DNA from: Phlebopus portentosus
Lineage: Eukaryota; Basidiomycota; Agaricomycetes; Boletales; Boletinellaceae
Assembly: GCA_037892935.1 (NCBI GenBank)
Contig: JAYXKI010000008.1
Location: 1,798,001 to 1,862,000, forward strand
DNA length: 64,000 nt
Direction: 5' to 3'
Shown: positions 19,131 to 55,160 of the stretch, one piece after another
Position numbering within the stretch: position 1 is the first letter of the stretch
How the letters are laid out: each line of letters starts with the position of its first letter
Notes under the pieces: model-generated
What the model was told of the DNA's origin: nothing
The model's database searches: none
What the model saw: the letters and a program-made list of their open reading frames with translations, nothing else
Made by a program: the position numbers and the translations under genes

Positions 19131-19598
19131 TGTATAAGTATAGTCTCGTCGTCAATGACAAGATGGCCTCCAAAGAATGTTTTCGATAATTGCCTAATAA
19201 AGCTATAAATTTGCACAATTTTTGAATACTGTGCTAGAGCATGAATACACAGGAAATATAAGACAAACTACGCAGAACTACACAGTGATGTACACGAAAC
19301 TACACAGATGGTCTTTTAAGTAGAGCTATAACGGTGCGTGTTAAACCGTAAAGTTCAGGAACTTGCAATCTATCAGCGAATCCGTGTAGGTAGGCTACAA
19401 TTCCCATGTAGTCAGGTGTTTTCTTTAAGAACAGCGAACGAACTGCACGGACATGCGATAATTGCGTCAATATGCAGTGATTTATCATCACCTAAAAAAT
19501 ACTAAATTGCCCGTAGTGTTGGTCGTGGGAGTCGCGTGACTGATAAGATAACTACTGTACATAATCTAAGTGAAACATAGTCAAGTCGTCAAGTCCTA
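19131..19598. other. Non-coding, includes a dispersed repeat end
   Basis: No gene. 19448-19492 (minus orientation) matches the repeat found at 55491-55532 (plus) and 58083-58122 (minus): TCACTGCATATT, then a spacer, then CATG-x-CCGTG. This may be the right edge of the same mobile unit that carries chimera copy 2. Confidence 0.55.
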
Positions 19599-20224
19599 AG
19601 GTAGGGAAAGTATAAACTCGACCAACCGTGACGCGACACGCTTACCCCATTTGGTCATCCACCCTCCCACAACATTTCAACAGAAATACACACAACACAA
19701 CACCTCAAATGAAAATTCTAACTCCATACATTTGTAGGGGGGATCCATACCTACATTTTGTTGGTCTTATTTCCTAAAAATATGGCTATTTGAGCTTCCT
19801 ATTTAAGGAAGAACCCTGACCTTATAAATTTACTCAGAATGTCATTTTTGCATGTTTTGGCACATCTTGAAAATTTTCGACCTAGATTTTTGCCGCTTAC
19901 ATATGCAAAATTATTATGTAAAGCTTGCATTTGTCATTTATTTGTCATACATTTGTAATAGCTTTGTCATATCCAAATCAAGTAGTTTTACTTGAAAGAC
20001 CAGAAAAGCATAGAGTAGCTAACCAAAGGCTTCAAACCAGCTCTAGGAAGCTAATCTACATTTGCAGAGCTTAAAATTCATGAGTCTCAAGGGAAATAAA
20101 ACAAAAGTCCTGGGTTGGGCCTCAGATTTTTGCTGCAGGGTCCTTCCAAATTGGGTTAAATCAGGGTCCATCAGGGTCATCAGTCACATGTGACAGGTTG
20201 GTCGAGTTTATACTTTCCCTACCT
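19599..20224. mobile_element. MITE, 626 bp, 29-bp perfect TIRs, TA TSD
   Basis: Inverted ends at 19599-19627 (begins AGGTAGGGAAAGTATAAACT) and 20196-20224 are perfect over 29 bp. TA dinucleotides flank both sides (19597-19598, 20225-20226). The inside is AT-rich with no ORF. TA duplication and TIR style fit a non-autonomous Tc1/mariner-type element. It sits 7 bp upstream of the Crinkler pseudogene start. Confidence 0.9.
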
Positions 20225-20231
20225 TACCACA

Positions 20232-22200: not shown

Positions 22201-22207
22201 ATGTTAT

Positions 22208-25200
22208 TGGGAGTAAGCAACTGCCGCAAGATGAGCGTGCCCTCCCACGGTCCCCGGATGATGATGCCGGACATCGGAGTACCAAAAAAAGTGGACTATG
22301 GTTTTCGTGAATTTTTGTAGGCAAAAATCTGCTTTGTACATGTAATTAAAATTCGAGAAAAAATCATGTTTATGTTTGGATACATTGATAGCTTTGAGTT
22401 TGGTAAGGATATGATTTGAGTTCAGGAAATGGCCGAAAAACAATTGAAACAAGCACAAAATTGGTCATACAACATACAATAAATTTTAGTTTGCCTTGAG
22501 CTTACCAAAAATTATGGTTAGACATTTAAGAAAGATTTTCGATCACTTTGGGAGATCGGTTTTGGTCTTTTTCAAAGAGAAGAAGCCTGTCAGTATTTGA
22601 AGTAAACCGCATAGAGTCACACACGGTCACATGCGAGCAAGTCGCGTCGACTCGACGCGTCTCGGGACTCGGCTCGACATTGCTCACTTGCTCAAGATTT
22701 CGTCTCGACGTCTTAATTTGTCTGAAGCATGGTAAAACACAAAAAATGCACAGTTATATTTGTTGCATATTCAAGCTAATGTTTGCAGGAATGGTGGTTT
22801 CAAGAGCAAAGAAACAAGCGGCAAGAGAGAACAGACTCAAAAGAACTCTGAAGGACTTGGGCCCTCCTCCTGCTACACCTGCACCAGTCACTACTCGCTC
22901 CGCTGTGCTCGCAGAAAAGGAGAATCAAATTCGGGAGGCTTCAATCTATATAGAAAAGGCTAGCAGGGCTATTCAGCTTCAACAACTAGCAAGTGACAGT
23001 AAAACGGCACAAATCACTAACCTTCGAGACACCACCTCATCTCAGCAACGCAGACTCAAATCTCAGGACGCAAAAATTAGCAAGCTCAACTCCAAATTGA
23101 ACAAAAGCAATGGCTTACTTGAATCAAAGACTTCTGATCTCCAAGACGACCTCCAGAACGCTCGAAATCGCTGCACACTGTTTTTCAATCGTCTTCGGAA
23201 CTCTCAGAAGCGAGTTTTTCGCATGAAGAAGGCATCATCTGCTCTACATTCTGCACTATCTTCAACGCGAAGTGAACTGGAAGAGATGAAGAAGAAACTC
23301 ACAAGAATTGAAGTCGAGCTGCAATTCCAGCATTGACGGACCTGGGAGCTCCTTCGAACCATTTTTGATATCGAAACGAAACTTCGGGTAGCTCAAGACG
23401 AGCATCGAGCGATCCTATCAAAAAGCAGAAAAATCAAGTCATATTTCTATTCAGTCATTGATTCCGCTTCGATTCGAGAAGAAAAATTACATACCGAGAT
23501 CACTCTGACATGCAAGCAACGAAAAGCCTACCGAATGCATCTTTCTCGAGTCCTCAAGACTGTAAAACAACTGAAAAAACTTCGGGAAGAGGTAGTCAGT
23601 ACACTGGAATTCAAGGAGAAGGGTGTCTACAAACCTGCCATTAGATCTCTTGTTCGATCTCTTGTCGAGCTCTCTTGTCCACTTGCGAATGTTGGGAGGA
23701 TCCTTAGCTGTTTTATTGAATTCACTATGTCCATCGACCTTGCGGTGCCGCGACGACTTTCGGAGCGGAAGAAGATTCTTGACGCAAAATCTGTTCGCAG
23801 AATTGTTGAGGAGGGGAGCGTCGCTTCAGATGCTCAGCTGGGACTTGAATCTGTCAACACGAAACGTAAGTGATAAGACAATTTGTATCTGGGATGCTGA
23901 TAGTGGTGAGCTCACCTTCCATCTCCAGTGTTCACGGTTAGTGGCGACGGAACTACGCACAGAAATCAGATGTACGAATCGCTCAGCATGAACAATTACG
24001 TACCAGAGTCCTACGTGAAGAACGAGAATGCGAAGGTCCCTCGAATTCGAACGTTTGGTGTTCAGCACTCGAAGGACCATAAGGCCGATACCCAGCGCGA
24101 GGGCGAACTAGATCAAATGAAAGAGTCTTTGTCAATTTTTGCACGGTCCCCTCTAGCACAGAGAATCGACTTACCGGATCAACCTTTGAACGAGAATTTT
24201 CTCGCTATGAAGCTTGCTGGCCGTCAGAGCGATCACTCCGAGGACCAGAAAGCTTTATTTCGTCAGTACTCAGAGTGGAAGAAAGAACATACCGAAATTG
24301 GACTTGGGGAGATTTATTTCCATTCGCTTCCGGAAAACGAGCAGCTTCGGCTCGCTTCTGAGTCCGAGAAAGAGCTCATCGAGATGCTGGGAGGGGAGAA
24401 CGCATGGGAAGACCTAGAGGAAGACGAAAAGAAAAGCAAGAAACATGATTGCATGATCAATGTACTCAAGGAACTGGCTGGAGAAGCTTACCTAAAGTTA
24501 TCTGGAGATGAAAGGCGACAACTTGATCACTGGATCTTCGCTAGATGCGGAATGCATAAAGAGTTGAATTCAGTAAAGGGTGGAGTAACTGGAATGAAGA
24601 AAGCTTGGGACTCACTGGGTTTTGGACCTGTCTTGCTGATGAACAAGGATAACGAAGCTGCATACGAACTTGCTGAGGGTGACGAAGAAAATTCGGCGGG
24701 AAATCGAGCCGTGGAACTTTCAATTGGGGGGGCCGTGAAGCTTTGCTGTTTGATAGGAGCGCTATTAAATCACAAAGACGACAAAAAAGGTCAGCACGAC
24801 GTATTCCGATACTTCTTCAAAGAAGAATTTGGACGTACCTTCACATTTCCCGACACTTCCAACACTCGTTATTCCTCGTATCTTGACGCTTCTGCTGAAA
24901 TCATCAAAAGGCTGGACTTCTACATCGAGTACATGCATCATATTTGTGACTCGAAGGAGAAGCCCGGCCTAAATCATCTCGAAGCGAATGTTTTGAAAGG
25001 ACTGCAAGACTTACCCACGCGAACCGAGCTTGCTGTTCTGACTCTGTACCAGGAGGCCATCTCGCATCCCTATATCAGAAAAATTCGCTCATCCGAAATG
25101 AACGCGCTGGACCAGGGCCCTCTTCATCATCAAGTTCAGGAACACATTAAAAAGCTCATTAACTCACCTGAGCTTATTCTGACTCCAAACTCTGAGCCTG

Positions 25201-26365
25201 AACAGGCGAAACTGGGCGGTCTTGACTTCTGGAAACATCCCGATGCAATCGAATCGATCTGGGAGATGGCTTCGACACTTCCCAAGCTCCGTGAAATGTT
25301 TGTAACGTTTCTCAAGGAAGCATTAACGACCTGGGAGCGTTTCTCAGCAGAATTCAACAACGATGGAAAAATTGCAGGACTCACCACAGAAGACAAGAAA
25401 GAGATGTACTTACCCGCTACGAACGACGCGAATGAAGGGACCCTGGGCTCCTTTAGGGTGTTTGCGCGTCGTTACCCGTCTGCAAATTTGGACCTGTTCA
25501 ATGCGATATTCAGAATGCGGAGGAATGGAATGGAGGATTTTATAAAGGGAAAACTCACCGGTGAGGATGACTTGAAGTTTCTGCGAAAGGAGGCTCGCCT
25601 TCATCTTGCTAGTAAACGAGATAGAAAAAAAAAGACGGTACGTTACGGAGTGGAACAAAGCGTGCGTTATCGAGAAACGACGCAAAACAGATGAACGGAA
25701 TGGACGAAGAATGCGACGCGAAGAATACCTCAAGAACCTTGAGCTTGTTGAAATAGAAACCATCCCATCATTGACGGTCGCGCGTTTGAAGGATCAGATA
25801 GACAAGCTTAGGGACGAAGACAAGGAGATACCGAGAGAAAAGGAGTTGAGTAGAAAGGAGGACAGAGCCCGAGCATTAATTGCAGCATTAGAGAGGTACA
25901 AGATTCGGCACCAGACTCCCGGTTAGCTTGTTCTCATCAGATGAAAATGGACAACTGAATGCGTTCGCATCTGTAACTACATTCAAGTGATCTTATTTGC
26001 TTGTCGAGCACTTGCTCCAGAGTATACAGTACAAGCTAGTCAAGGACTGCGGAGTCGAAGCTGCGGGTGAATGAGTGAAAGAAGAAAGTTCAACAAATTT
26101 AGCAGATCACGAATCGATCAATTTCACATCCATATACCGATCAACGGACCGATCGACGATCAGATAAGATCTCTCAAGTTTTGAACTCTCGGTTTGGATC
26201 AAACTCAAAGCCTTTTTGTCATTTATAATGTATGTACATAATTTCTATCTTTTACTACTGCCTATGTGCCATTCCTACCGACACAATTCGGCCAAATAAG
26301 GAAATATTATCAGCTCCACCGGCAAACGCCGGGCACGATCGTCTCGCGGCAGTTGCTTACTCCCA
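22208..26365 (+). mobile_element. DNA transposon, 4158 bp, 35-bp TIRs, 7-bp TSD
   Basis: Left end 22208-22242 starts TGGGAGTAAGCAACTGCCGC; right end 26331-26365 is its reverse complement with 32 of 35 matches. The flanking ATGTTAT is directly repeated at 22201-22207 and 26366-26372. Inside is one gene with coiled-coil and transposase-like parts. TIR sequence and 7-bp duplication do not point me to a named superfamily; KDZ, hAT and P-type elements usually give 8 bp. Only two defects are seen in the gene, so the insertion is fairly young. Confidence 0.88.
22791..25926 (+). pseudogene. Putative transposase of the 4.16 kb element
   Basis: The ATG at 22791 directly follows a probable 5'UTR intron (donor about 22731, acceptor TTTGCAG at 22782-22788). 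Exon 1 (22791-23865) encodes a basic start (MVVSRAKKQAARENRLKR), then a long coiled coil rich in Ser/Lys/Gln. Intron 23866-23928 (GTAAGT...CCAG) joins it in frame to a globular domain with VSGDGTTHRN (about 23940), CGMHKELNSVKGG (about 24545), a C-terminal NDANEGTLGSFRV (about 25420), and a charged tail to 25926. The Asp in SGDGTT and the Glu in NDANEG are candidates for catalytic acids of an RNase H-type fold; this is inference. Defects: TGA at 23334-23336 (a CGA-to-TGA change would explain it) and a one-base slip in an A run at about 25626-25634, after which the other frame carries the tail. Confidence 0.7.
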
Positions 26366-26372
26366 ATGTTAT

Positions 26373-26967: not shown

Positions 26968-28170
26968 TCAACACCTTACAGCATCATTCCATCTTGTTCT
27001 CACCTTCGCACAACTGTACTTCTCGCAGCACGCTCCCCGCGTGCTCTCGTCGATGATATCGAAGCTGCGAATGATACTGCGCAAGAAGAAGCGACCTTCT
27101 GAAAATTGATGTATATTACCTACCAAATCATCCTTCGTGAAATGGGATAATGCTCGATGTCCAGAGCCGATCGGAATACGCTTCCCCTCTACAGATTGCT
27201 GACCCAAGAGAGACGTCTGAGAGATGTTGATGAAGGAACCCTTGGAACCGACGACTATCATCTGTTTGACTGTATTGCCGTCCTCTTTGAGGTTCTTCTC
27301 AGTATATTGACCGGAGCGATCACGAACCAGACTGAGCTCCCGCTCGACTCGTCTCTCGAAAGATCCATGGCCGCATCTTCTATGGCTCTGGCAATATTCT
27401 GTTTCCGCATCTCAATCTGCTCCGTGATGGGCGCATTCGGTTTTTTTGTCTGGAACTATATCGCTGATATCGATACTGAATCCATTGTGGAACAGGCAAT
27501 AATTGACGATACTTCGCAGACTCATGAAGAGCGTCGTGTAGCTTCAGGGACCCTTTTCCGAAAATAACGCATACCAAGACTAAGCCGCCTTGGGACCTGG
27601 GATGCGCAAACATTATTCTTCTCAACAAAACCAAAGACGATCCCGTCATCCTCCAACAGTATACTGTCTTCGAAGACGGCGCTCTGCGACTTTCCTTAGG
27701 TCGACCGGAGATTGTTGATCCCACACGGAACGTCATGCTGAGAATTCGCTTGCTCGTCCATAAGTGTTTAGGTTTCAAAATGGTTGTTGTCGGGATCGTG
27801 CCGTCCCAGTTCGGTATTCGAAGCAGTGTATTCTGCACTTGTTGCCGATCGCGCAAGGTGGACCTGCGGATACCGCAAAGAGTATCCTGCGCGATACCCC
27901 TAACATGTTTCTTTGCTTGAGCCAATAAGACTGTCTGGAGACCCACGCTCTTTGACTGAGCTCGGCCTGAGTCTCCTCGCTCTGGGGAGCGCGACGGATA
28001 TATGAGAAACGATAACAAGGCGGAAGTGAGTCTACATATTTCATTGCCATCAGAGTCGGCATTGGAGAAGTAAGGGAAAGAATGATCAAGAGCCGTTAGA
28101 AATTGGTCAGAATTTAGACATGAACATATATATAGGTCGAGAACGCACTTGAAAAAAAAAAAATAGAACA
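26968..28170 (-). pseudogene. RPB1: RPB1 fragment downstream of the active site
   Basis: Minus-strand frames give successive RPB1 pieces: SEETQAELSQ (about 27985), a relic of the DTLCGIRK-x-TLRD segment (about 27870), WDGTIPTTTILKPKHLWTSK (27770-27830), RILSMTF, SQGGLVLV (about 27580), and SKGSFINISQTSLLGQQSVE (27190-27250) followed by HRALSHFTKDD (about 27145). In living RPB1 these follow the NADFDGD loop in this order, so the piece is colinear but broken by frameshifts. It is complementary in extent to the plus-strand RPB1 fragments elsewhere in the window, with overlap around the SEETxAELSQ segment. Confidence 0.85.
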
Positions 28171-28435
28171 TTCGTCGGATTGTGTTGGAGGAAATTTCTG
28201 TACTATTAATAGATTAAATCGGACGGATTGAGCCTACCGTACAGCATATGTGACTCGGTGCACATAGGCTGTTGTGACTCGTTCTCGTCTTGCTCGCTCG
28301 CTCACTGTCAGCGCTCTGCACTTTATCAGACATCAAATGGGAAAGATTCATAAACGTGCGATCGCATCCCATAACACGGAAACCGAACCTAAGCGCTTTG
28401 GGAAGAAATAAGATATACATGAGTCTACCTCTGCC
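28171..28435. other. Non-coding spacer
   Basis: No gene. It starts with an A9 run and separates the RPB1 fragment from the deaminase copy. Confidence 0.5.
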
Positions 28436-29147
28436 TCAGAACAGCATAAAGTCACTTAACGAAATGAAGTCAGCACTAGTATCACGATAGAAGATGAATA
28501 TTACGCACTCGTCTTCCACTGCTTCAGACCAGGGCATAGTAACACCGTGATCAGAGACTGAGGCGGCCGTGCTCTCAGAGAAGGTACACGGTCTCAGACG
28601 ACCCCGGCGCCTAAGATGATTGAAAAAATCTTTTGCCTCGGTCGCCATGAACTGGTTGCGTACCTTCGCCGAAATAAAGGCCACTGATAAACCCGACTGT
28701 GCGACCCTCGTGTATAGTAGTGTAACTGACCCAGCGCTTGCCTCATCGCTTTGAAGAACAACCAGCAACCGACGCACGACAACCGTGACACTCCAATGTA
28801 AGGGTATGCTGTAATTCGATGATCCAGGAAATACTGAAGGACGACAGCTTCCGCATGGACGAAAATGTACTTATGGAGGACCAGAGACTGACCTGAGCTC
28901 GTCCTTCTCGTCTTGAAGTCATCAAAGGTCATCCCCAAGCCTTGGTTGAGTTTAAAGAGAGTCTTGATATCGTCATCCTTGTTGAAATCAAAACTGAGTC
29001 GTCTTCGCTGGGGTCCAATGATTCGTTTTCCAGGCAGAAATGACAAATACGCTGGGCAAAAAATACATTCTCGCATCTTCGAGGGTCTGGAACATCTTCG
29101 AGGGTCTGGAATGATTCATTCCCCGGTGTATCTGTAGATAAAGCCAT
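28436..29147 (-). pseudogene. Truncated copy of OTT_1508-like deaminase gene
   Basis: A 5'-truncated duplicate of the gene at 30122-31909. It keeps the catalytic region (VHAEAVVLQYFLDHR, YIGVSRLSCVGC) and the same C-terminal end (SADFISLSDFML). A deletion after GSHSRVYQW near 28680 shifts the frame. Homology to the full gene ends near 29010, upstream of which the sequence differs and contains a 20-base tandem (CATCTTCGAGGGTCTGGAA twice, about 29072-29110). No intact start; non-functional. Confidence 0.85.
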
Positions 29148-30121: not shown

Positions 30122-31909
30122 TCAGACCAGCATAAAGTCACTTAACGAAATGAAGTCAGCACTAATATCACGATAGAAAATGAATATTACGCACTCATCT
30201 TCCATTGCTTCAGACCAGGGCATAGTAACACCGTGATCAGAGACTGAGGCGGCCGTGCTCTCAGAGAAGGTACGCGGTCTCTGACGACCCCGGCGCCCAA
30301 GATGATCGAAAAAATCTTTTGCCTCGGTCGCCATGAACTGGTTGCATACCTTCGCCAAATCAAGGGACGGAAAAACCCACTGATAAGCCCGACTGTGCGA
30401 CCCTCGTGTATAGTAGTGTTGCTGACCCAGCGCTTTCCTCATCGCTTTGAAGAACAACCAGCAACCGACGCACGACAACCGTGACACTCCAATGTAAGGG
30501 TATGCTGTAATTCGATGATCCAGGAAATACTGAAGGACGACAGCTTCCGCATGGACGAAAATGTGCTTATGGAGGACCAGAGGCTGACCTGAAGCCGTCC
30601 TTTTCGTCTTGAAGTCATCAAAGGTCATCCCCAAGTCTCGGTTGAGCTCAAAGAGAGTCTTGATATTGTTATCCTTGTTAAGATCATAATGGAGAAGTCT
30701 TTGCTGGGGTGGAATGATTTGTACATCAAGGTCCAAATTGTCGAGGATATGTCCACACGACGCTGATTTGCACAGAATCAGCAATTGTCGAATGCTGGAG
30801 TCTATCGACAATAGCTTTTCCACTAGCCGCGAGTACCTACTGTCTTCATCGCGACAGCTCCCTTGATCTTCCGATTTCCCTGCAAGCACTAACGAGCAGA
30901 ACTGTGAGACCGCTTTGAGACAGATCGGAGAGGAAAGAAACTCACTGCCAGGAATCTCGTCTAAAAATTCCAGATTGCCCAACCTCCTCGCCAAATCGTT
31001 TGCATCCGAACATGCCTTCAACACGGCTGTGGCACCTTTTCCCGGCACATGCTTCATATGCTCGTCATAGCGATCAAATACGTTGACGATTGCACTGACA
31101 AAGTCCCATTGAGTATCTTCCAGCCTCAATATGGAAGTGGAAGTGCCAGACGCAGACGGGAATGGCACACCAGGGCTGGATTCGGTGTGGTCGCCAGGGC
31201 TGGATTCGGTGTGGTCGCCAGGGCTGGATTCGGTGTGGTCGCCAGGGTTAGGTTTGAGATTCTTTTTCTTTTGCAGAAAATTGCGAAGCATGCTGTCCAA
31301 ACCAAATTCCTTCGCTTTATCGAAATACCGCCTCAGACGTTCTTTGCTGAAAGTATAACAGAGGCGATAAAGTTCAAGGGTTGGATGGACAACGATATCG
31401 GTCTCATCGGGCGTCGATTCTCGGCGATACCCGGGGGTGATTTCCTGCATTATGCGCAAGTTTCGAAGATGACCGAATATGGCCTCCAGGTGGCGCTTTG
31501 CACGGCTCAGCCTTTCCTTCGATGATCCATTCGCTCCAATGAAGAGAAGAAGTTTATCATCGCGCCCGCTCGGGGTTTCAACCGGGGGAACGAGGCCGAC
31601 TGCGACAGTCTCTCCTCTTCCCTGCGATACGGAAAGGGATGCCAATGCATCAAGTACTGGCATGAGCCGATGATGAGCGTTGGAATAATTGGAATGTACA
31701 GCGGAAGCGGAGAGAATCTCATTGATCCGGGTACGCTCGTCACGAGGCAATGCTAAAGTCGGAAGCACCAAGAACAAATTGTCGTCGCAGGCGGTGATAA
31801 TGCGCTCTGCCGTTGTGCACTGTTCGATGAGAAGTTTCTTGATAGCATTCTTTGACCTGTACACCGTCCAGCCCTCTTCTGGCTGTTCTGGAGCTTGGGA
31901 TAGCGACAT
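30122..31909 (-). CDS. OTT_1508-like nucleic acid deaminase family protein
   Basis: Single uninterrupted frame of 595 residues. It fits the fungal OTT_1508-type branch of the zinc-dependent deaminase superfamily: HAE at residues 453-455 supplies the zinc His and the proton-shuttle Glu, and CVGC at 480-483 supplies two zinc Cys, with the family's YIGVSR just before. The N-terminal 440 residues are family-specific and have no motif I know. Residues around 220-250 hold four copies of DHTESSPG, encoded by a 24-bp tandem repeat. No signal peptide or membrane segment. The superfamily removes amino groups from bases or nucleotides; the substrate of fungal members is unknown to me. A TATA box stands about 60 bp upstream. 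All catalytic residues are present, so it may be active. Confidence 0.82.
   Translation of the reverse strand: MSLSQAPEQPEEGWTVYRSKNAIKKLLIEQCTTAERIITACDDNLFLVLPTLALPRDERTRINEILSASAVHSNYSNAHHRLMPVLDALASLSVSQGRGETVAVGLVPPVETPSGRDDKLLLFIGANGSSKERLSRAKRHLEAIFGHLRNLRIMQEITPGYRRESTPDETDIVVHPTLELYRLCYTFSKERLRRYFDKAKEFGLDSMLRNFLQKKKNLKPNPGDHTESSPGDHTESSPGDHTESSPGVPFPSASGTSTSILRLEDTQWDFVSAIVNVFDRYDEHMKHVPGKGATAVLKACSDANDLARRLGNLEFLDEIPGSEFLSSPICLKAVSQFCSLVLAGKSEDQGSCRDEDSRYSRLVEKLLSIDSSIRQLLILCKSASCGHILDNLDLDVQIIPPQQRLLHYDLNKDNNIKTLFELNRDLGMTFDDFKTKRTASGQPLVLHKHIFVHAEAVVLQYFLDHRITAYPYIGVSRLSCVGCWLFFKAMRKALGQQHYYTRGSHSRAYQWVFPSLDLAKVCNQFMATEAKDFFDHLGRRGRQRPRTFSESTAASVSDHGVTMPWSEAMEDECVIFIFYRDISADFISLSDFMLV
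31152..31248 (-). repeat. 24-bp coding minisatellite (DHTESSPG)x4
   Basis: Four units of CCAGGGCTGGATTCGGTGTG plus GTCG (plus-strand reading), in frame with the deaminase gene. The near-identity of units suggests recent copy-number change. Confidence 0.85.
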
Positions 31910-32170
31910 GATGGTGGTTGCAATGTAAAGATGTAAAGTGTACTACTTACTTTGGGCAAGGCACGTGTTTATATAACGGTCCGAAGCCTGGTTCTTTTGT
32001 CCGTACTGCGCGGGATGACAAAAGAGAGATGACACATACGGTGGGATCCACAAACCCCAAATGACATGATGGCATGATGGTGGTTGCAATGTAAGGCGTG
32101 TTTATATGACGGCCCGAAGCCTGGTTCTTTTGTCCGTACTGCGCGGGGATGACAAAATAGAGATGATAAA
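31905..32170. repeat. Duplicated 5' end and promoter of the deaminase gene
   Basis: 31907-32030 is repeated at 32071-32165: both have CATGATGGTGGTTGCAATGTAA, in two parts, then CGTGTTTATAT, then CGAAGCCTGGTTCTTTTGTC and CGTACTGCGCGG. The duplicate includes the reversed start codon but no coding sequence beyond it. Confidence 0.8.
31966..31978 (-). promoter_or_regulatory. TATA box of the deaminase gene
   Basis: TTATATAAACACG on the minus strand, about 60 bp upstream of the ATG at 31909. The duplicated upstream copy has a weaker form (TCATATAAAC) near 32100. Confidence 0.55.
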
Positions 32171-35256: not shown

Positions 35257-35487
35257 TGAATAGAGTTGCAGTATTGGCAATAAACTCGAAATGCAACTCA
35301 TAGAACCATGAGTGCGCCATCAATCTCCTGAGGGCTGAAAGTCATCCTTCACCCTTGCTCCTCATCCTCCTCACCCACATCGATCCCTCTGCCCTACTCG
35401 ATCAAATATATGGAAACCTCACACAATTCAAATGAAAAAGTGCATACTCATCTCGGTTTATCTTCTGGCAGCTAATGCACTTTGTAG

Positions 35488-36560
35488 ATGGGAAGAGGAA
35501 CCACTATCCCTCCAATGATGAGAAGCGCCATTGTTCGCACGAGCAGAGTGTGTGCGTTGCCGGTGAAACAGATCAGCTACTATACAGATGTGCTATTAGC
35601 CAGTGTATACTTTGTGCTCAAGACCTGGTCTGCTGAGGAAGGTGCTAAAGAAGGACAGCTTAAAATCTGAAGAAGGTGTCGGCTGCTTGACTATGATGAT
35701 ACAAGGGTGAGTGGGGTTTGGTATGTTTAGAGTGACTTGTCTGAGCACAGCATCAATTCCAGTTCTTATGTGGCGCTCTTCATGACATCAGAAGGACTAT
35801 TACCTGGATGAGCTCAAAGAAATACTAAAGAAGACATGCGGTGTGACATGCTCTGAAAGTACCATTTGGAGAATGCTGCAGCACATCGGATTCAGTCTCA
35901 AGAAGGTTGAAATGAGGAACCCACAATACCTGAGACAGAGCTGATGATTTAAACTGTTCAGGTTACCAAACATGTGCAGGAGCGCAATGAGGCAGCAAGG
36001 GCAGAATATATCCTTCGAACTGAGAAGTACAGTCCAGAACAGCTTGTCTTTGTGGATGAAAGTGCCTGCGACCGTCAGACATATATACAAAATCAGGCAT
36101 GGGCATTGGAGGGTAAGTGCACTGTCTGCAAGGCATTCTTTCAGAGAGGAAAATGGTGAGTATGTATGTATATCAATGTAATAGTGTTCTTACTCTGACA
36201 GATATTCAATTCTTCCTGCAATCTCACTTGACGGCATCATAGATTGCCTCATTGTTGAGGCTCTTTCAATACAAACCTGTTTATGCATTTCATTTCTATG
36301 CTGGTCGATCAGTTACAACCCTTTCCTGCACCAAATTCTGTTGTCGTGATGGATAACTGTCTGATTCATAAGGCACCAGCCATTCATGAGCTCATAGAGT
36401 TGAGGTGAGTTGTCCAGAACGTAACTGGCAATACTCTGACTTATGAGTAAGGAAAGGGGAATGAAGCTCAAATTTCTTCCAGCATACTCACCAGACTATA
36501 ATCCCATTGAGCAAGCCTTCTCCGTGCTTAAGAGTAAGATACGGTGTGAAGGACTAATTG
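35488..36560 (+). pseudogene. Tc1/mariner-type DDE transposase, decayed
   Basis: Starts MGRGTTIPPMMRSAIVR. Following pieces in shifting frames: YYLDELKEIL and STIWRMLQHIGFSLKK (about 35800-35905), RTEKYSPEQLVFVDESACDR (about 36015-36075) with the first catalytic Asp, VVVMDNCLIHKAPAIHEL (about 36340-36395) with the second, and YSPDYNPIEQAFSVLKSKI (about 36485-36540) with the final acidic residue. Two short introns could explain some frame changes, but stops remain. The downstream TIR expected just after 36560 is not found. Confidence 0.85.
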
Positions 36561-36935
36561 CAAGGGATGGTGTCCCAAATGATTATAGCGTGTATTAGCA
36601 GATGTATTGTCTTGTCCATTCCATCACTCCTCAAGATGCACGGGGATTCTTTCATAATTCAGGATATATCTAGCTTTATTGTATGTGCAGCACTGTCTTT
36701 ACCCCATGTCATCTCGGAAGACTTTTTGAGCACTGTAGAATGTGGCAGACCATGATGAGATGAAAGTGATACATGTCATGATGTGGTGCTATGCGGGGTC
36801 TCACTTCCGGTGCTTCCAGTGGTTTCTCCATTATGGCATATGAGACTTATATAAGGCCTCGTTCTAGAGTGGCTGTGGGGTGCAACTCATCCTCTATCTC
36901 CCATCCTCTTCTCCATTGCGCCCTTTGTCCTTCCC

Positions 36936-38341
36936 TCATGTATTCTTCACACTGCACGTCTGCCTTTCGCCTGAGAAAACCTGTAACTCACGTGTCGGCA
37001 CCGACGGCAGACACAGACAGTGAGTACTCCTAAATTTATCCTATTGCTTAGTCAGCTTTGCTCATCTCAAGTAGTATCCACACTCACACTCACATCCACA
37101 TCTGCACTTGAGACACCTGCACTTGAGACACCCGCACCTGAGACATTCCCATCTCCTGTTCGTTGATACTTCTGAGTCGCCCACAGAAGATAACTTTATT
37201 GGTGCGTTTATCAGGTGCATAGAACCGGTTTTGATTTCGAGATGACTGACCATTTTAAAGGGGATGACAAATCAGCAGATCATTCAGAACCTACACTAAT
37301 TATAAAAGCAGGGCTCCTAATCCTGTCAGAAAATTCATGAAGTGGTCCCTGAATAAAATAAAAGATCATCAGGTGCAACTCAATCTTTAAAGGCAAAGAT
37401 CCAAGATTTAGAGGAACGAGTCACTGCTGGGGATGATGGGTTAGGAAAGCAGTTACAGGAGGTAGAGACGAAGATCAACAAAAACGTGAATCAGACAAAT
37501 TTCTATCTTACTTTGCATGACAATGCTATTCTTGGAGTGAGTTCTATTCTTACATGTATGCTATTTGTGTGCTAAACCTTGTTGATTGCAGAGTGCAAGA
37601 GCTATCGACTGCATACTGGTTCACCGCCTTATGGAGTCTATGCAAAAGACTGTGGTGATTGGTTTGAAGATTACGGCAGAGGCCTTTGATTTCTTTCGAG
37701 AGGAAGAACTTAAGGTCGAGGTCCAAGGACATAAGATTAAGGATGCTGATGCTAAAAAATGCATTTCCCTTACTGCATTCGGCTTGCAACCAGACTTTGA
37801 CTCACTTAAATTGCCGAGGCAAGACAATGTCAGCTTCAACTTCGATTCTTTCAAGCACTCTGTGATATGGGCGTCACAGACGATGTTCTTTTGGTGGCAC
37901 AGAGTACCCGTAAAGACAATCTTCATGGAGAAAGTTAGATCAGGACTTTTCCATAAGTTGAAAGCCTTGCTGCAGTATGTCGAGCTTTGCTATGATCTTC
38001 ATCATCAGTGAGCTACCGACACCTTAGATTTGGCTAAGCATTTTGCAAAGGCCGATTTGCTGCACAATATATTAGAAATGTACGCAAAGCTTGAAGGCAT
38101 TATGACCTGTGAGACCCTGACCTATGAAGATCATGACACTATTGCTATGATCAAATCGTTTATCGTACACGAGTCCACCGCGATGAAGCTTGAGAAGGCC
38201 ATCGAACTCCTCAGAGACAATGAAAAACTAAGACAAATCATTCAAACTGACAATGATACCAAAACAGTTACTCAATATGTAGCTGCAGCTGCTCATGGGC
38301 TGTTCATGGCGCCTCACACTCTTTCTGGGGTCGGAGAATGA
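36936..38341 (+). CDS. Unknown coiled-coil protein, one in-frame TGA
   Basis: No family recognised. A possible 5' exon runs from about 36936 (MYSSHCTSAFRLRKP) with an intron at about 37020-37071 (GTGAGT...CAAG) and a small repeat ETPALETPAPET. The better part starts about 37382: AKIQDLEERVTAGDDGLGKQ gives a coiled coil, an intron with donor GTGAGT (about 37536) and acceptor TTGCAG (about 37591) follows, then 140 residues with FDFFREEELKVEV and DNVSFNFDSFKHSV up to TGA at 38009-38011. The same frame continues to 38341 with LDLAKHFAKADLLHNILEMY, which suggests the stop is a single mutation (CGA to TGA). No membrane segments. It lies inside the region bounded by long inverted repeats and may be cargo of that element. 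Confidence 0.45.
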
Positions 38342-39690
38342 ATTAAGGCTTATAGAAGGGTCCCTGATGAGTTGCTTAGAATGACTGAAGGGCTCGATAA
38401 CTTGGGATTAATTTTGTTCCACGATTGGCCGAATACACAACGAGAGGTGGAATCAAACTGGAATGATGAGATTCTTGAAGAGGGGCATGCCGTTGTAGTG
38501 CCCTGGCCAGTCCTGTGCCAGGACACTCATACTATGGCTCTCCCCTACTTCAGATACCATATCCCTTCGCCGCCTACACCTCAGAGGACCAGGGCATACT
38601 CATACCACACTCTAGAGGCCATACGAGCACATATCTATAGATTCTAGCCTACGCTTCCCCTGCGGCGCCCTCCAAGAGCCCAGACGAGTCCGCCGCTGGC
38701 TCCCTGGCACCCATACACATCCGCCGAAGGCTCCTACCCAGCACCAGACACCATGGGAGATGTCCCCCAATCATTATAGGCCTTCGTTATTACGATTCCT
38801 CATATGTACAGCCTCGAGGCAGATTTGGACACCCCTGTGGCGGCTCCCCAAGCCTCAGATTGGTCCGGCGGCCACTCAGGCGTCCTCAGGTGCCCTCGCC
38901 GAGGCCTCCTACAACTTACCAGGCAGTCCCCCAAGGCCTATAGATTTATCTAGTATCATCCCTGCTCATATGCCACCAAAGGCCACACCTTTACGAATCC
39001 GCCGCCGATCGAGCGGCGAGTTGCAGATCCGCCGCTCCGGCGCCCTCCTTAGTTACCATGGATCGCCTACACTCTATATTGAGTGTGGCGGCGGCCTTGG
39101 GCGGCCTAGGGACCCTGACTGATGCGCCCTCGATCTCATATATGCGATATCGGCCTCCGAACATCGGCCCCAACGTTTCCTGACTTCCCCCAAGCGGCGG
39201 GTGACTCTAGACCATATATGGCAGTCAGGCATGTGGTACAGCGGCGTGCCAAGCCACCGACCGCCGCTGCCAAGCCAGACTCCGCCGGCGCCCGTTTTAT
39301 TGCAGATACTCGATATTTCATGCCATTGGATGATCCCCTCGCGATACAGCTCTTGGGCGACTCCTAGATGCTCCGGCGGCGGCCCTTGGCGAGCCCAGTG
39401 ACTCAGAAGATGTTGTCAGACAGTAGGACTCATCGGCGAGAGCAGTAGAGTATATATAGAGTGTATATTCATCAGTAGACGACACCACATATGAGAGATA
39501 GACGAGATAGAGAGCATATACAGCACCCAAGGGCCAGGGTTCGAGATTCCCTCACTCTGAGCTCCCCCACATGTACTGAGCTCCCCCCATTGACTATATA
39601 CTACCCCTGACTCGTCGTTCTATTCTCCTTCGGCGCCTCTGACATTTAGTGTGTGAGTTAGGACTGGGAACCTACCCCCAAACGTCCGCC
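38342..39690. other. GC-rich non-coding region with CGGCGG words
   Basis: Short frames in all directions and no conserved motif. 38640-39420 is rich in CCGCCG/CGGCGG and TATAGAT words and resembles the adjacent 182-bp tandem repeat in composition. Confidence 0.5.
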
Positions 39691-39699
39691 GCACTACAT

Positions 39700-40440
39700 C
39701 GTACCTGTCAGGCGGCCTCTATTCGACCTCAGCGGCTCTCCGGCGACACAGGCCTTCCATTGTATCCCCCTCGGCGTCTTTTCCAGTTACTCGCCGCACG
39801 TTGTCCCTTATATTCATCGTATACGGTCCCTACCTTTCATTTACCCAGTTTACGCTACCGCGGCGGATTTGTACGAGCTCCCTCGTCCCCGGCAGCCCCC
39901 TATTTGACCTCGGCGGCCCTCCGGCGACCCAGGCCTCCTTTCCTATTCCCCTTCGGCGTCCTTTCCAGTTACTCGCCGCACGTTGTCCCTTATATTCATC
40001 GTATACAGTCCCTACCTTTCATTTACCCAGTTTACGCTACCGCGGCGGATTTGTACGAGCTCCCTTGTCCCCGGCGGCCCCCTATTCGACCTCGGCGGCC
40101 CTCCGGCGACCCAGGCCTCCTTTCCTATTCCCCTTCGGCGTCCTTTCCAGTTACTCGCCGCACGTTGTCCCTTATATTCATCGTATACAGTCCCTACCTT
40201 TCATTTACCCAGTTTACGCTACCGCGGCGGATTTGTACGAGCTCCCTTGTCCCCAGCGGCCCCCTATTTGACCTCGGCGGCCCTCCGGCGACACAGGCCT
40301 TCCATTGTATTCCCCCTCGGCGTCTTTTTCACCTACTCGCCGCACGTTACGCCTCATATTCATCATATACAGTTCCTAGCTTCACCCTACTGAGATTGCA
40401 CTACTCCGGCGGACTCCTGTGACCTCCCCTTCGATCCGGC
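39700..40440. repeat. 182-bp tandem repeat, about four units
   Basis: The landmark TCGCCGCACG occurs at 39791, 39973, 40155 and 40337, exactly 182 bp apart. The first three units are nearly identical; the fourth is diverged. 182 is not a multiple of three, so the three plus frames permute from unit to unit, and all three stay open across most of the array (longest 39649-40422). I regard these frames as a by-product of stop-poor GC-rich sequence rather than a gene. Confidence 0.9.
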
Positions 40441-40674
40441 GGACCTACTACTCCATTCCTTTCATACCTCGGCGTCTCTAGGGCACTCCCCCACGTCTCT
40501 GACAGTTTTTGGCACCTGCCAGGTGGTTAGTGGTTAGAGTCTGATAGCTTGAGGCTTTGTTTCTGGAGGTTTCTTCACACATTCAGCTCCCTTAGTAGGA
40601 CGGACATCTGTAGCACCTTCAGATAGAGAGACCACCCACATTACCACACCGTCAAAGCCTTCAATAAGCTTGAC

Positions 40675-41241
40675 ATGGAAAAGCAAAAAATTTTGATACA
40701 ACAAATTGCATTGCAGGAGACTGCTGAGGGTAATCCCCTCGCATATTCTTTTCCAACAAGTGGAGCTGCACCTACCTTCAATGAAGCAGGTTTTTTCATC
40801 ATGAAACACTCACATAAAAACATAACCAACACCAAAACAACTCATAGTCTCGGAGATCGTATTAACCCAGTTGGTCAATCTCAAACAAATCTCAGTCTCA
40901 TAGATCGTATTGGCAAAATCAAAGGCAAAGGCAAAGGCAAAGGCAAAGGCAAAGGCAAAGGCAAAGGCAAAGGCAAAGGCAAAGGCAAAGGCAAAGGCAA
41001 AGGCAAAGGCAAAGGCAAAGGCAAAGGCAAAGGCAAAGGTAAAGCTACCGACATCAGCCAAATCGGAGCCTCCATTAGTGAAGATGAAGTCGAGGAAATC
41101 CCCCAGGTTGGACATCAACACTCCCTGTTGTCTCGAGTTTTCCCGAGAATCCCTACCTCCAACTTTTATCCTTATGAACCCAAACACCCACCAAAGAGAG
41201 AAGGTGAAGGTAGTCGGAAGAGGATGAAGAAGTGGCATTAG
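40675..41241 (+). CDS. Gly-Lys repeat protein, possibly gag-like
   Basis: 188-residue frame. Residues 1-80 include SLGDRINPVGQ and SLIDRIGK, which recall the short SLLDRI-type motifs of basidiomycete retroelement gag proteins (weak). Residues about 81-122 are Gly-Lys dipeptides encoded by a GGCAAA hexamer array. The tail has an acidic patch (SEDEVEEIP) and a basic end (KREGEGSRKRMKKWH). No catalytic domain. It could be a retroelement gag fragment or a spurious frame around a microsatellite. Confidence 0.4.
   Translation: MEKQKILIQQIALQETAEGNPLAYSFPTSGAAPTFNEAGFFIMKHSHKNITNTKTTHSLGDRINPVGQSQTNLSLIDRIGKIKGKGKGKGKGKGKGKGKGKGKGKGKGKGKGKGKGKGKGKGKATDISQIGASISEDEVEEIPQVGHQHSLLSRVFPRIPTSNFYPYEPKHPPKREGEGSRKRMKKWH
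40921..41040. repeat. (AAAGGC)n hexanucleotide microsatellite, about 20 units
   Basis: Uninterrupted AAAGGC units over about 120 bp. The array encodes Gly-Lys on the plus strand and (Phe-Ala)/(Leu-Pro) on the minus strand, so the long minus-strand frames here are shadows. Confidence 0.95.
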
Positions 41242-41828
41242 TAGCTACTCTGTCAGTCGGCTCTCCTTACTTGTTTTGTCATGTCTTCTGATTCTCCTCT
41301 CATCATCATCTAGTTCCCCTTCATCAACCAAGATGGTCCACCTTATTTATTTATTTTATCTCTCTCCCTACCTCTCTCTTTCTTTTCTTATGCATAGGCC
41401 ATTCCTTCGTCCCTCCTTTCATTGTGCATCGGACATCTGTTTGTTCTCCCTTCCTATGTGTATCTGTTGTGAGTTTTTAGCTCGTCCTTTTTCTCTCTGC
41501 ATTTGGTGTCTGTTGTGCACCCTTCCTTTCTTCCTTCCTTCACAATGACATGTACTATTTATGCGAACGATGATGCTTCTCATTATCGGAGGGATAGCAG
41601 TTCCTCTTCCCATCTACAAAGTGTATTAGCTGCCAGAAGATAAACCGAGACGAATATGCACTTTTTCATTTGAATTATGTGAGGTTTCCGTATGTTTGAT
41701 TGAGTAGGGTAGAGGGATCAACGTGAGTGAGGAGGATGAGGAGCAAGAGCGAAGGATGACTTTTAGCCCTCAGGAGATTGATGGCGCACTCATAGTCCCG
41801 TGAGTCACATTTCGAGTTTATTGCCAAT

Positions 41829-42809
41829 GGTGACTGGCATTCTCTATATCACATGTGCGCCGAGAAATTTATGTCGGAGCTTTTATATTTTCCATATAAG
41901 GTGCAAAATGTCGATCTCAGTTGTCCACTTTCTTGAATGATAGATGCACAGTGCTCAATGCTCCCAAACATCAAGAAGTGGGATCTTTGAGTTCATAATG
42001 ATATAAAAATGGCATAATATGGCATTTGCCAGTCTATCTCATTAAAACACATGACCAATATAAAAGATATTATAACTGGTGATCATACTGAAGCTATATT
42101 TCCCTGAATTTGAATGATCAGACCTTTAGGAGAAAAATTAGGACTCTCATGCCTTAATATGAGCACATAAAATGGTTCTGGAAGACTTTTGCAGCATCAA
42201 AAAATTGTAGGGAGAGTCAGCTTTTTGTCTTTCCAAAACTCAATATTTCATTGCAAAAAGTACCTGGAAGCAGTTTCATCTTTTCCAGAAACCTTATTGT
42301 ATGTATATATGTACTATATTTATGTCAGAAGAAATTGTTTCTTGTCCGGTATATGTCAATTCAAGTACTTTCACCATGAAAGTTCAAGTCACATGACCAA
42401 TAATTTCCTTTTCTAACTCTTCATCCCTCAAGAAGATAATTCTCCTTCGCTTGATTGCAACCAAGAATCATCACCAAAAATGCTTCATTGGTATTTTATG
42501 GTCCTAATCTTTAAATTGTTGAAAAAAAATTTTCAAGGATTTGCTTGGTTCTTTCAATATTGCTTGTGACTATACTGTATCTTGCTCATTTTTCAGAAAA
42601 TTTTTGATATTTTCAATACAATATACACTACCAGCTCAGAAATGCACAAATCAGAAATTTTCTGGCCATAACTATGTGTGGTACAGGTCTTTGTATGCAT
42701 GGTAAGTCAGATTCAAAAAGTGGAGAATAAGCGAGTTGCGGCATCTCATTGGCATGTGATGCTGGGGCTCGTGGGAATAAACATTTTTACATGGGGATTG
42801 CCAGTCACC
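41829..42809. mobile_element. MITE, 981 bp, 9-bp TSD, inserted in Tc1-type arm
   Basis: The ends GGTGACTGGCATTC (41829) and GATTGCCAGTCACC (ending 42809) are inverted with one mismatch in 14. ATTGCCAAT is duplicated at 41820-41828 and 42810-42818. The intact counterpart at about 35270-35295 (reverse complement) has a single ATTGCCAAT at the same place, so it is an empty site inside the window. A 9-bp duplication fits Mutator-like elements. No ORF of note; interior AT-rich. Confidence 0.85.
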
Positions 42810-42865
42810 ATTGCCAATACCGCAACTCTATTCATATGGTGACCTGACTCATAATATAATAAAAG

Positions 42866-51797: not shown

Positions 51798-53183
51798 CAC
51801 AGGGGGCAGAACCTTATTTTATAGGCTCAGAAATTTGATCCAGAATAGGAATATAAAATAAAATCTTTTAGAACCCATTTTTAATCATAAAGAATTAGAA
51901 ATATTTGAGATGCAAAAATAGAATTCAGAAGATTATTTTCTAATTCCTATATTTTAAGCATTAAGAATTATAAGTTTTTAAAATCACTTTTTTTTTTTAC
52001 TTTTTAAGCCTTGCATATTCTATTAAGTTTTATAAATTTACATAGTATTGAAATAGATATAAATATTTTATATACTTGATAGTGTTTTCTAGGATAAATT
52101 ATTTAAAATAAAAATCAGTCTGAAATATGTTTGAGAATATTATAAATAGGAGGACTTTAAACTTATAATTTTCTATATTGTTTTTCAAGTAAAGAAATTC
52201 TTATAAATATTTTAAATAAAAAAAGCTATAAAATACATTACTAATTTATAAGTTCTAAAGGGTTTTGAATATAATACAAAATTATAAATTAAGTCGGCTA
52301 TAGAATAACATATTTTGCAACCTTTAGAATATACTATTCTGAAGGCAATAGAATTTGCAATTCTTTAGACATAAGAACTTGTTTTAGATTAATAAATTTT
52401 ATGCATGTTATAACTTAAAATATAATTTGATACAAAAAGTTTAAGTTTTTGAGCTATAAAAATAGAAAATAAGCTAGAATTTTATATTTTAGAGTATCCT
52501 AAACTATATAAAATCAAATTTATGTAGCTCAAAAACTTAAACTTTTTGTATCAAATTATATTTTAAGTTATAACATGCATAAAATTTATTAATCTAAAAC
52601 AAGTTCTTATGTCTAAAGAATTGCAAATTCTATTGCCTTCAGAATAGTATATTCTAAAGGTTGCAAAATATGTTATATCTATAGCCGACTTAATTTATAA
52701 TTTTGTATTATATTCAAAACCCTTTAGAACTTATAAATTAGTAATGTATTTTATAGCTTTTTTTATTTAAAATATTTATAAGAATTTCTTTACTTGAAAA
52801 ACAATATAGAAAATTATAAGTTTAAAGTCCTCCTATTTATAATATTCTCAAACATATTTCAGACTGATTTTTATTTTAAATAATTTATCCTAGAAAACAC
52901 TATCAAGTATATAAAATATTTATATCTATTTCAATACTATGTAAATTTATAAAACTTAATAGAATATGCAAGGCTTAAAAAGTAAAAAAAAAAGTGATTT
53001 TAAAAACTTATAATTCTTAATGCTTAAAATATAGGAATTAGAAAATAATCTTCTGAATTCTATTTTTGCATCTCAAATATTTCTAATTCTTTATGATTAA
53101 AAATGGGTTCCAAAAGATTTTATTCTATATTCTTATTCTGGATCAAATTTCTGAGCCTATAAAATAAGGTTCTGCCCCCTATG
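51798..53183. mobile_element. 1386-bp AT-rich palindromic (foldback) element
   Basis: Left arm 51798-52456 and right arm 52524-53183 are inverted copies with very few differences over about 660 bp, around a 67-bp unpaired centre. The outer ends are CACAGGGGGCAGAACC (left) and its complement with one change (right: CATAGG...). ATA is repeated on both sides (51795-51797, 53184-53186). A CAC-type terminus with a 3-bp duplication would fit a CACTA/EnSpm-like non-autonomous element, but this is tentative. No ORF. Confidence 0.85.
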
Positions 53184-53266: not shown

Positions 53267-55160
53267 ATGACCACCCCAACGGGGTCAGCAAGCATGTCGG
53301 ATCAGAGAGTCTAGTGCCTCCTTATTGACCACGAGAAGAAGGCTGCCTTCGAAAATGCCTTTTCCGTCATCATCGGCCCTGACGCGTACATTGAAGAGTT
53401 AACGAAGAAGGCCAAGGAAGAGCGAACAGCTGACCTCGAGCACGTCGATGCTGCCAGGCTCACGGTGTGGAGATGCACGGATCCCGGAATCGACTTTGGC
53501 AATATGGACTCTGACGACTTTAATAAGCGACTCAAAGAGATCTTCTTCCCCGATGAGAAGAAAGTTAAGAAGCTCAATCCGAGGCTGGGGGTGGACCAAC
53601 TTGCAGATGAGACACTACTTTTCGAGATTCCCGGTGCGTCGCACTTCTTCCTCTTTTCAAGATGTAGCTTAATTGATTGTCCTGGACTTCTTGTAGCCAT
53701 CTCTACTAAGCGGCCAAGGTCTTCCGAAGCGGAGACTGGAGAAGACCGTCTCAACAAGCTTTTGAAAAAGGCGCCATCGTCCCTTACCAATGAGGAGGTA
53801 TTCCGAAAAACAGCCGGAGATTTTGTAAAGATGAACCGACCATTCGAACGTCACACGATTCCCATCGAGTTGCTCGATCCGCATTTCGGAAAGTTCAAGG
53901 ACAATTGCTCAGTGCCTCCGGAACCATGGTCTCAGGAGCTTCTTCTTGAACTCACTTCGGCGGCGTGCCAATGGTACGATAGTGAAACGGACCGCCGCTC
54001 GGCAATTCTAGACGTCTTGAACAAGAGTGGAATTCAAATGGCGGCGGAAACGATCAACCACACTGAGTACAAGACTGATGGCAATTGTCGAGTTGTCGTC
54101 ATGCCGGCTGCAATCAGGGAATGCAAGACTACGACAGGAATCAATTCCGCAGTCTTTCAAAGCGTCGGTTACTATGCGCAATTTCTCAATAATGCGAAGA
54201 AGAAGATTAAACAATCCCGCTTCCCTTGTGTTCTCTTCATTGACACCGGTATGTCGAAAGTTGTTGATTCTTTTATTTTAAACCCTGCTGATCGGGCATT
54301 TTAGGAACGCTCTTTGGTTTATATGGGTGTATATGGACGGGGAAGTACATACACGTGGAACCCCTGACCCCCGTATACGACCTAACATGCCACTCCACTG
54401 ACGAAATCTCCAGGGATGCAATAGCATCTGTCTGGAACGCTTTCAAGGAAACCATTCGTAACCTTGAATCGTACTATGATACCCTCGTTGATCCGCCTAT
54501 CACAATAAACCTCACGTTTCCTTATCCGACAAGCTACGTGGATGAGACTGACCAGGTAGTCAATTTCACGTATCTATCACGAATTGAAGGAAACCTGGTT
54601 TTTACTGCACAGACCAACGGCGACCCGAAAGAGAAAATATGCATCAAGTTCACGAGACGCTATTCAGAAACGGCACACCGATTACTTGCTGACCATGGGT
54701 ATACTCCGCAGCTTCGGCGGGTAGTCCCTCGTCCTGGAAATTGGTTGCAGGTTGTCATGGATTACTCGAATTATGCTCCACTTTCCGATGCCCACCTGAA
54801 CTCGGACGAACAGGAAAAAGTGAGATCTAGCGTACAACGAATTGTCCAGGTGCTTCATAAGAATGACATTGTTCATGGTGATATTCGAGAGGTCAATATC
54901 CTCATCGATAAGGAGACGCTATCTGTCCAGCTGATAGATTTCGATTGGGCAGGGACAGATGGGCAAGCCAGATATCCGAGACAGATCAACACCAAGTCTG
55001 TTCGACGTCCACATGGCGCATCTGATGGGAAACTGATCACCAAAGAGCACGATACGAAAATGGTGGACTTTCTGTTCGACGTCCCCATAGCACTTCTGAT
55101 GGGAAACTGATCACCAAAGAGCACGATATGACAATGGTGGACTTCCTGCTTGCTGAATAA
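53267..55160 (+). pseudogene. Crinkler (CRN) with nuclease-like and kinase modules
   Basis: Proposed exons: 53267-53633, 53697-54248 and 54305 to about 55110. Introns 53634-53696 (GTGCGT...GTAG) and 54249-54304 (GTATGT...TTAG) keep the frame. The header domain (53320-53633) has the Crinkler-type sequence of short beta/alpha elements with LTVWRC. The middle part resembles a PD-(D/E)xK nuclease: IRECKTTTG (about 54115) followed by QSVGYYAQF. The C-terminal part is protein-kinase-like with VHGDIREVNILI (54872-54907, catalytic loop HGD) and LIDFDWAG (about 54935-54958, DFD for the usual DFG). Defects: in-frame TAG at 53312-53314 and a 74-bp tandem duplication near the 3' end that shifts the last residues. 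This nuclease-kinase architecture is known from eukaryotic Crinklers. If the TAG is read around by an unseen splice it might be live; I call it broken. Confidence 0.72.
55006..55150. repeat. 74-bp tandem duplication at the CRN 3' end
   Basis: TCTGATGGGAAACTGATCAC begins at 55021 and again at 55095, offset 74. The copies share CAAAGAGCACGATA and ATGGTGGACTT. Since 74 is not a multiple of three, the frame changes after the first unit and ends in a new short tail. Confidence 0.9.

Follow-up and report, generated by a model that had tools for sequence, protein, structure and literature searches.

The window analysed here is a 64,000-bp stretch of the Phlebopus portentosus genome (contig JAYXKI010000008.1, positions 1,798,001–1,862,000; below, contig C8). 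It contains a damaged cut-and-paste DNA transposon of 4,158 bp at positions 22208–26365, a member of a large lineage of Agaricomycetes that, to our knowledge, has no name. The transposase of this lineage is built, and probably works, like the transposases of the hAT superfamily; we give this reading a probability of about 0.8. The analysis covered the ends of the element and of its relatives in the 38.4-Mb, 23-contig genome, the residues conserved among the encoded proteins, and the predicted fold, which is closest to that of the hAT transposase Hermes. Positions are those of the window unless another contig is named.

Ends of the element and its copies in the genome

The inverted-repeat arms, 22206–22242 and 26331–26367, are 37 nt long and 92% complementary; because their outermost two bases belong to the overlap with the target site duplication (TSD), the terminal inverted repeats (TIRs) proper are 35 bp, with three mismatches in total and none over the first 20 bp. 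The original prediction, made from the letters of the window alone, had described matched 35-bp TIRs and a 7-bp direct repeat, ATGTTAT, and both were found, the repeat on both flanks. A TSD of 8 bp, AATGTTAT, was rejected: it requires an asymmetric end and fails in a sibling copy on contig C9.

The first 20 bp of the element end occur without mismatch at four places in the genome, namely, both ends in the window and both ends of the C9 copy. Allowing three mismatches adds two more places, while the backwards control is found at one place at ≤3 mismatches. The two parts of the C9 sibling are 97.9% and 97.5% identical to the window element, and its TSD is CGTACAT, again 7 bp and of a different sequence. 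The two parts of the sibling (loci L021 and L022) are separated by an insertion of about 23.8 kb (C9, approximately 275167–298977), by eye of the long terminal repeat type, with ends TG..CA and a 5-bp duplication TTCGA.

A six-frame search of the genome with the catalytic open reading frame (ORF) gave 90 matching pieces, and the ends were inspected in 20 stretches around them. The relatives examined terminate in related sequences, e.g., TGGTGATCGGCAATGG, TGGTGACTGGCAATTCC or TGGGGGTCGGCAAT; the ends of the window element, TGGGAGTAAGCAAC, are a variant that has TGG and GCAA in common with them. The end pattern TGGTGRYYGGCAAY occurs at 55 sites in the genome, versus one for its backwards control, and the pattern TGGGGRTCGGCAAT at 12 sites versus none. 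Six inward-facing pairs of end sites are spaced by 0.8–1.8 kb, which leaves no room for the full gene (ends were read in four of the six).

Both ends were seen in 16 elements, 12 carrying the gene or a part of it and four short. An exact 7-bp TSD adjoins the TGG..CCA boundary in 11 of the 16 and an exact 6- or 8-bp TSD in none. The TSD length, which had been left at 7 or 8 bp, is 7 bp both here and in the C9 sibling. Among the remaining elements, L025 has six of seven TSD positions matching, L037 and L039 have exchanged TSDs, and L026 and a short copy on contig C10 have none adjacent. Only the right end was seen for L027, only the left end for L033 and L034, and neither end, by pattern, for L028, L030, L032, L035 and L038. 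Gene copies lacking the TIRs would have spoken against the original prediction; the closest sibling and most of the examined relatives have them. The window element is confirmed as a real cut-and-paste DNA transposon with TIRs and a 7-bp TSD, and a chance origin of its ends is excluded by the sibling copy, the related ends and the equal TSD length across the family.

When the 11 exact TSDs are pooled, T at position 2 and A at position 6 account for 14 of 22 bases (p = 4e-4, a post hoc test on a small sample), and for 17 of 26 once the two exchanged TSDs are included; positions 1 and 7 are also skewed, toward C and G (11 of 22). The target consensus of hAT elements is nTnnnnAn.

Several observations concern the arrangement of family copies. 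L037 and L039 (contig C1, 2776509–2781166 and 2805401–2810058; 4,658 bp each) are 99.8% identical and lie in opposite orientation; across the pair, the duplication CTAGCTA is exact and TTTGTAG has a 1-bp offset. This exchange is the mark of inversion or ectopic recombination between the copies, or of misassembly. On contig C2 (239348–250376), L031 and L029 form a nested insertion, since an element with the TSD ATATATG lies inside an element of the same family with its own TSD, TGAGTTA. A related transposase is represented by nine fragments of similar score, on contigs C7, C12 (three), C15, C16, C18, C20 and C21, and the distance to the same end motif recurs, being about 17.6 kb in five of the nine. 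Their reading as a giant element was dropped, as the nearby inward-facing end pairs (about 4.9, 5.0 or 8.4 kb apart) do not enclose the fragment; a large duplicated segment is likelier. An exact 24-base telomere repeat, searched for in order to place these fragments, was not found. A lone end motif of the sibling-subfamily type, TGGTGACTGGCAAT, for which no partner was found, lies on the minus strand of the window at 42797–42810 (C8: 1840797–1840810).

Transposase gene and its damage

The element carries one multi-exon gene (Table 1). The plausible start codon is preceded, within the same ORF, by two in-frame Met codons. The first large exon comprises a coiled-coil-like part (about 22900–23610, by eye) and a helical region resembling a helix-turn-helix (HTH; about 23625–23865, by eye, the label being taken from the helix pattern in the predicted model of the relative P0002). 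The motifs VSGDGTT, CGMHKELN and NDANEG all lie within 23937–25439, downstream of the coiled-coil-like part. The single large gene of the original prediction, with an N-terminal coiled coil followed by these motifs, is thus recovered, as one gene in several exons. Matches of the N-terminal piece to coiled-coil families of Pfam are weak and under the family cut-offs; in long relatives, a coiled-coil-like stretch is likewise seen by eye ahead of the catalytic domain.

The N-terminal ORFs 22530–23336 and 23337–23873 share one frame and are parted by an in-frame TGA (23334–23336), which is absent from the sibling copy; a second frame break lies near the A-run 25625–25633. Because of these two lesions, the window copy is not intact as assembled: the description 'near-complete' holds, for a damaged copy.

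Table 1. Positions in the window of the ends, gene parts and conserved residues of the element.
Feature	Position	Strand	Remarks
Left TSD	22201–22207		ATGTTAT, 7 bp
Left TIR	22208–22242	+	TGGGAGTAAGCAACTGCCGC...
First large exon	22791–23865	+	plausible start ATG at 22791; coiled-coil-like part, then HTH-like helical region
Intron	23866–23928	+	63 bp, GTAAGT..CAG; inferred from protein P0001 (..SVNTKLFTVSGDG..)
Catalytic exon	23929–25694	+	RNase H core and helical insertion, both predicted
D	23946–23948		in catalytic exon
Second D	24231–24233		in catalytic exon
CxxH	24546–24557		in catalytic exon
Arg of TRY	24867–24869		in catalytic exon
E	25434–25436		in catalytic exon
C-terminal part	25576–25926	+	other frame
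Right TIR	26331–26365	-	
Right TSD	26366–26372		ATGTTAT, 7 bp

Relatives and sequence searches

Two protein searches, in which scoring was limited to the candidates with the most shared words, gave 270 and 169 proteins over the threshold; names and organisms are those of the best 120 of 270 and the best 120 of 169. The best protein, from Sanghuangporus sanghuang, aligns with 80% of the query at 97% identity. The organisms named among the matches listed are, judging by genus, presumably all Agaricomycetes. Most of the named relatives among these matches are hypothetical proteins; two are called Myosin-10 and eIF3 subunit A, names that probably derive from the coiled coil. Precomputed Pfam domains are absent from the matches listed in the first search, and one protein listed in the second has PF11932. 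In the alignment of 78 proteins, C and H of CxxH, R of the motif TR followed by Y or F, and E are invariant, and both D residues are conserved in at least 90%.

No transposase family of Pfam matched the window ORF or 20 members of the family. In particular, none of the 20 members matched the hAT models, including Dimer_Tnp_hAT (PF05699), at E ≤ 1, and the KDZ (Kyakuja–Dileera–Zisupton) catalytic domain PF18758 was found neither in them nor in the window ORF. NCBIfam gave no match for the window ORF and P0002, a weak negative, since this collection is built on prokaryotes. A sequence search of the PDB with the family profile returned only keratin (E = 0.25) and alanine-tRNA ligase (E = 1.8). 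HHalign comparison of the 78 members with 12 mushroom hAT proteins gave a probability of 0.2% (E = 0.34), the reversed controls reaching 0.1% (E = 0.57 and 0.71); the hAT profile is shallow, most of its rows lacking the N-terminal part, and weak similarity may have been missed. Among the papers listed in a literature search that did not extend to Repbase, Dfam and most subscription journals, none describes this family in its title or abstract opening.

Predicted fold and relation to hAT

The fold of the predicted model is closest to that of Hermes by a clear margin, with about 8–11% identity in the structural alignments (PDB 6dwz, 4d1q and 8sjd). The model has a predicted DDE (Asp-Asp-Glu) RNase H core into which an all-helical domain is inserted, a trait of hAT, with the three acids in plausible places; such a fold had been named in advance as support for the original claim. 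A library of viral structures yielded a single match at E ≤ 0.001, to a hAT-type pandoravirus protein. We take the positions of VSGDGTT, CGMHKELN and NDANEG to correspond to the first D, CxxH..LN and E of hAT; CxxH and TR(Y/F) were matched to the Hermes residues of the hAT motifs CxxH and RW by order and position only. With Pfam giving no match and HHalign giving 0.2% versus 0.1% for the controls, the relation to hAT is visible in the fold only. Of the original claim that no named superfamily fits, the part concerning sequence therefore stands, since no Pfam model names the transposase, while the structure search points to hAT; 'an undescribed class' was an overstatement, given the Hermes-like predicted fold and the motifs at hAT positions.

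Like Hermes, the family has a predicted RNase H core with a large helical insertion and short TIRs; the order D, D, CxxH, TR-aromatic, E resembles that of the Hermes motifs, and the TSD tends to have T near the 5' end and A near the 3' end. Unlike Hermes, it shows no profile similarity to hAT, its N-terminus is coiled-coil-like and HTH-like with no BED zinc finger matched, and its TSD is 7 bp. The second D and the C of CxxH lie 105 residues apart, versus about 33, by eye, in a degenerate canonical hAT of the same genome, whose motifs DNASN, CMPH and VAVERVFS also differ from those of the window family.

These differences bear on the possibility that the family is an ordinary divergent subgroup of hAT rather than a separate lineage, which we regard as a serious but less than even prospect. 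The predicted Hermes-like fold and a TSD preference resembling the hAT consensus agree with it, and hAT subgroups with TSDs of 5, 6 and 7 bp are described, including the 7-bp hAT7 families of rust fungi (PMC12730594). The window family shares with hAT7 the 7-bp TSD and basidiomycete hosts. However, hAT7 is recognisable by sequence, being placed with fungal hAT and Ac/Tam3 (PMC12730594), whereas the window family matches no hAT domain of Pfam, shows no profile similarity to the 12 mushroom hAT proteins, shallow as their profile is, and has motifs unlike those of the canonical hAT in the same genome. Since sequence homology was not detected and none of the 16 elements has an exact 8-bp TSD, the family should not be filed as a member of hAT.

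Membership in KDZ, a known basidiomycete superfamily, is improbable. The hosts are the same, Kyakuja of mushrooms also makes 7-bp TSDs (PMC12730594), and KDZ elements of Cryptococcus are described with TIRs of 139–241 bp and TSDs of 4–8 bp (PMC12810828). But Kyakuja is described with ends CA..TG and no TIRs, in contrast to the TIRs beginning with TGG found here, and the TSDs of Dileera and Zisupton are 8 bp (PMC12730594). Kyakuja families in that paper carry a TET/JBP gene, while one gene without a KDZ match was found in the window element. The 10 KDZ matches of the genome, like its hAT copies, do not coincide with the places matched by the family.

Membership in the P superfamily is likewise improbable. 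Its transposases combine a coiled coil with a P-type RNase H that carries a GTP-binding insertion; TSDs are 7–8 bp (e.g., Galileo), 7 bp in some members. No Pfam transposase model of any kind matched the family, and no P transposase is among the structure matches listed, which by itself does not exclude P. TSDs of 6–7 bp are also made by Dada transposons. These are reported to insert into multicopy small RNA genes (PMC3706591).

To judge from the model and from the positions of the motifs, this is apparently a divergent hAT-like lineage and not a new mechanism. That it forms an unnamed, Agaricomycete-centred superfamily, which has a structural ancestor in common with hAT, has diverged from hAT until no sequence similarity is detectable, and has evolved ends, a 7-bp target spacing and a coiled-coil N-terminus of its own, stands at even odds in our estimate.

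Proposed mechanism of transposition

The coiled-coil-like part would oligomerise the transposase, and the HTH-like region may help to bind the ends, which begin with TGG and share GCAA. The predicted DDE RNase H core, split by the all-helical insertion, would cut the ends; by analogy with Hermes, the flanking DNA could be released via a hairpin, and the role of the hAT RW motif might fall to the conserved TR(Y/F). The excised element would then be joined to the target strands with a 7-bp stagger, giving the 7-bp TSD that is observed. The short copies, which have the common ends and TSDs, are probably mobilised in trans by full-length copies.

Other features of the window

Next to the element, 26971–29115 and 30125–31942 encode parts of an RNA polymerase subunit of the Rpb1 type, together with two OTT_1508-like deaminase domains. 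A Crinkler-type N-terminal domain, with a kinase-like domain in the next ORF, is present at 53315–55107. Three further inverted repeats were observed: a perfect repeat of about 31 bp bounding about 630 bp at 19597–20226, which resembles a small non-autonomous element; repeats of more than 200 bp with mismatch interruptions, about 6.1 kb apart, at 35273–41828; and a very long, nearly perfect repeat with arms of about 650 bp and a short spacer, lying in an AT-rich stretch, at 51801–53180.

Significance of the family

Proteins of this family would be counted as host genes of mushrooms and would escape transposon pipelines based on Pfam. Ends starting with TGG, GCAA a few bases further in, and a 7-bp TSD provide a handle for searching for the family. 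A predicted Hermes-like fold without detectable sequence similarity would also help to test what determines the hAT-type cutting of ends and the target spacing of 7 versus 8 bp.
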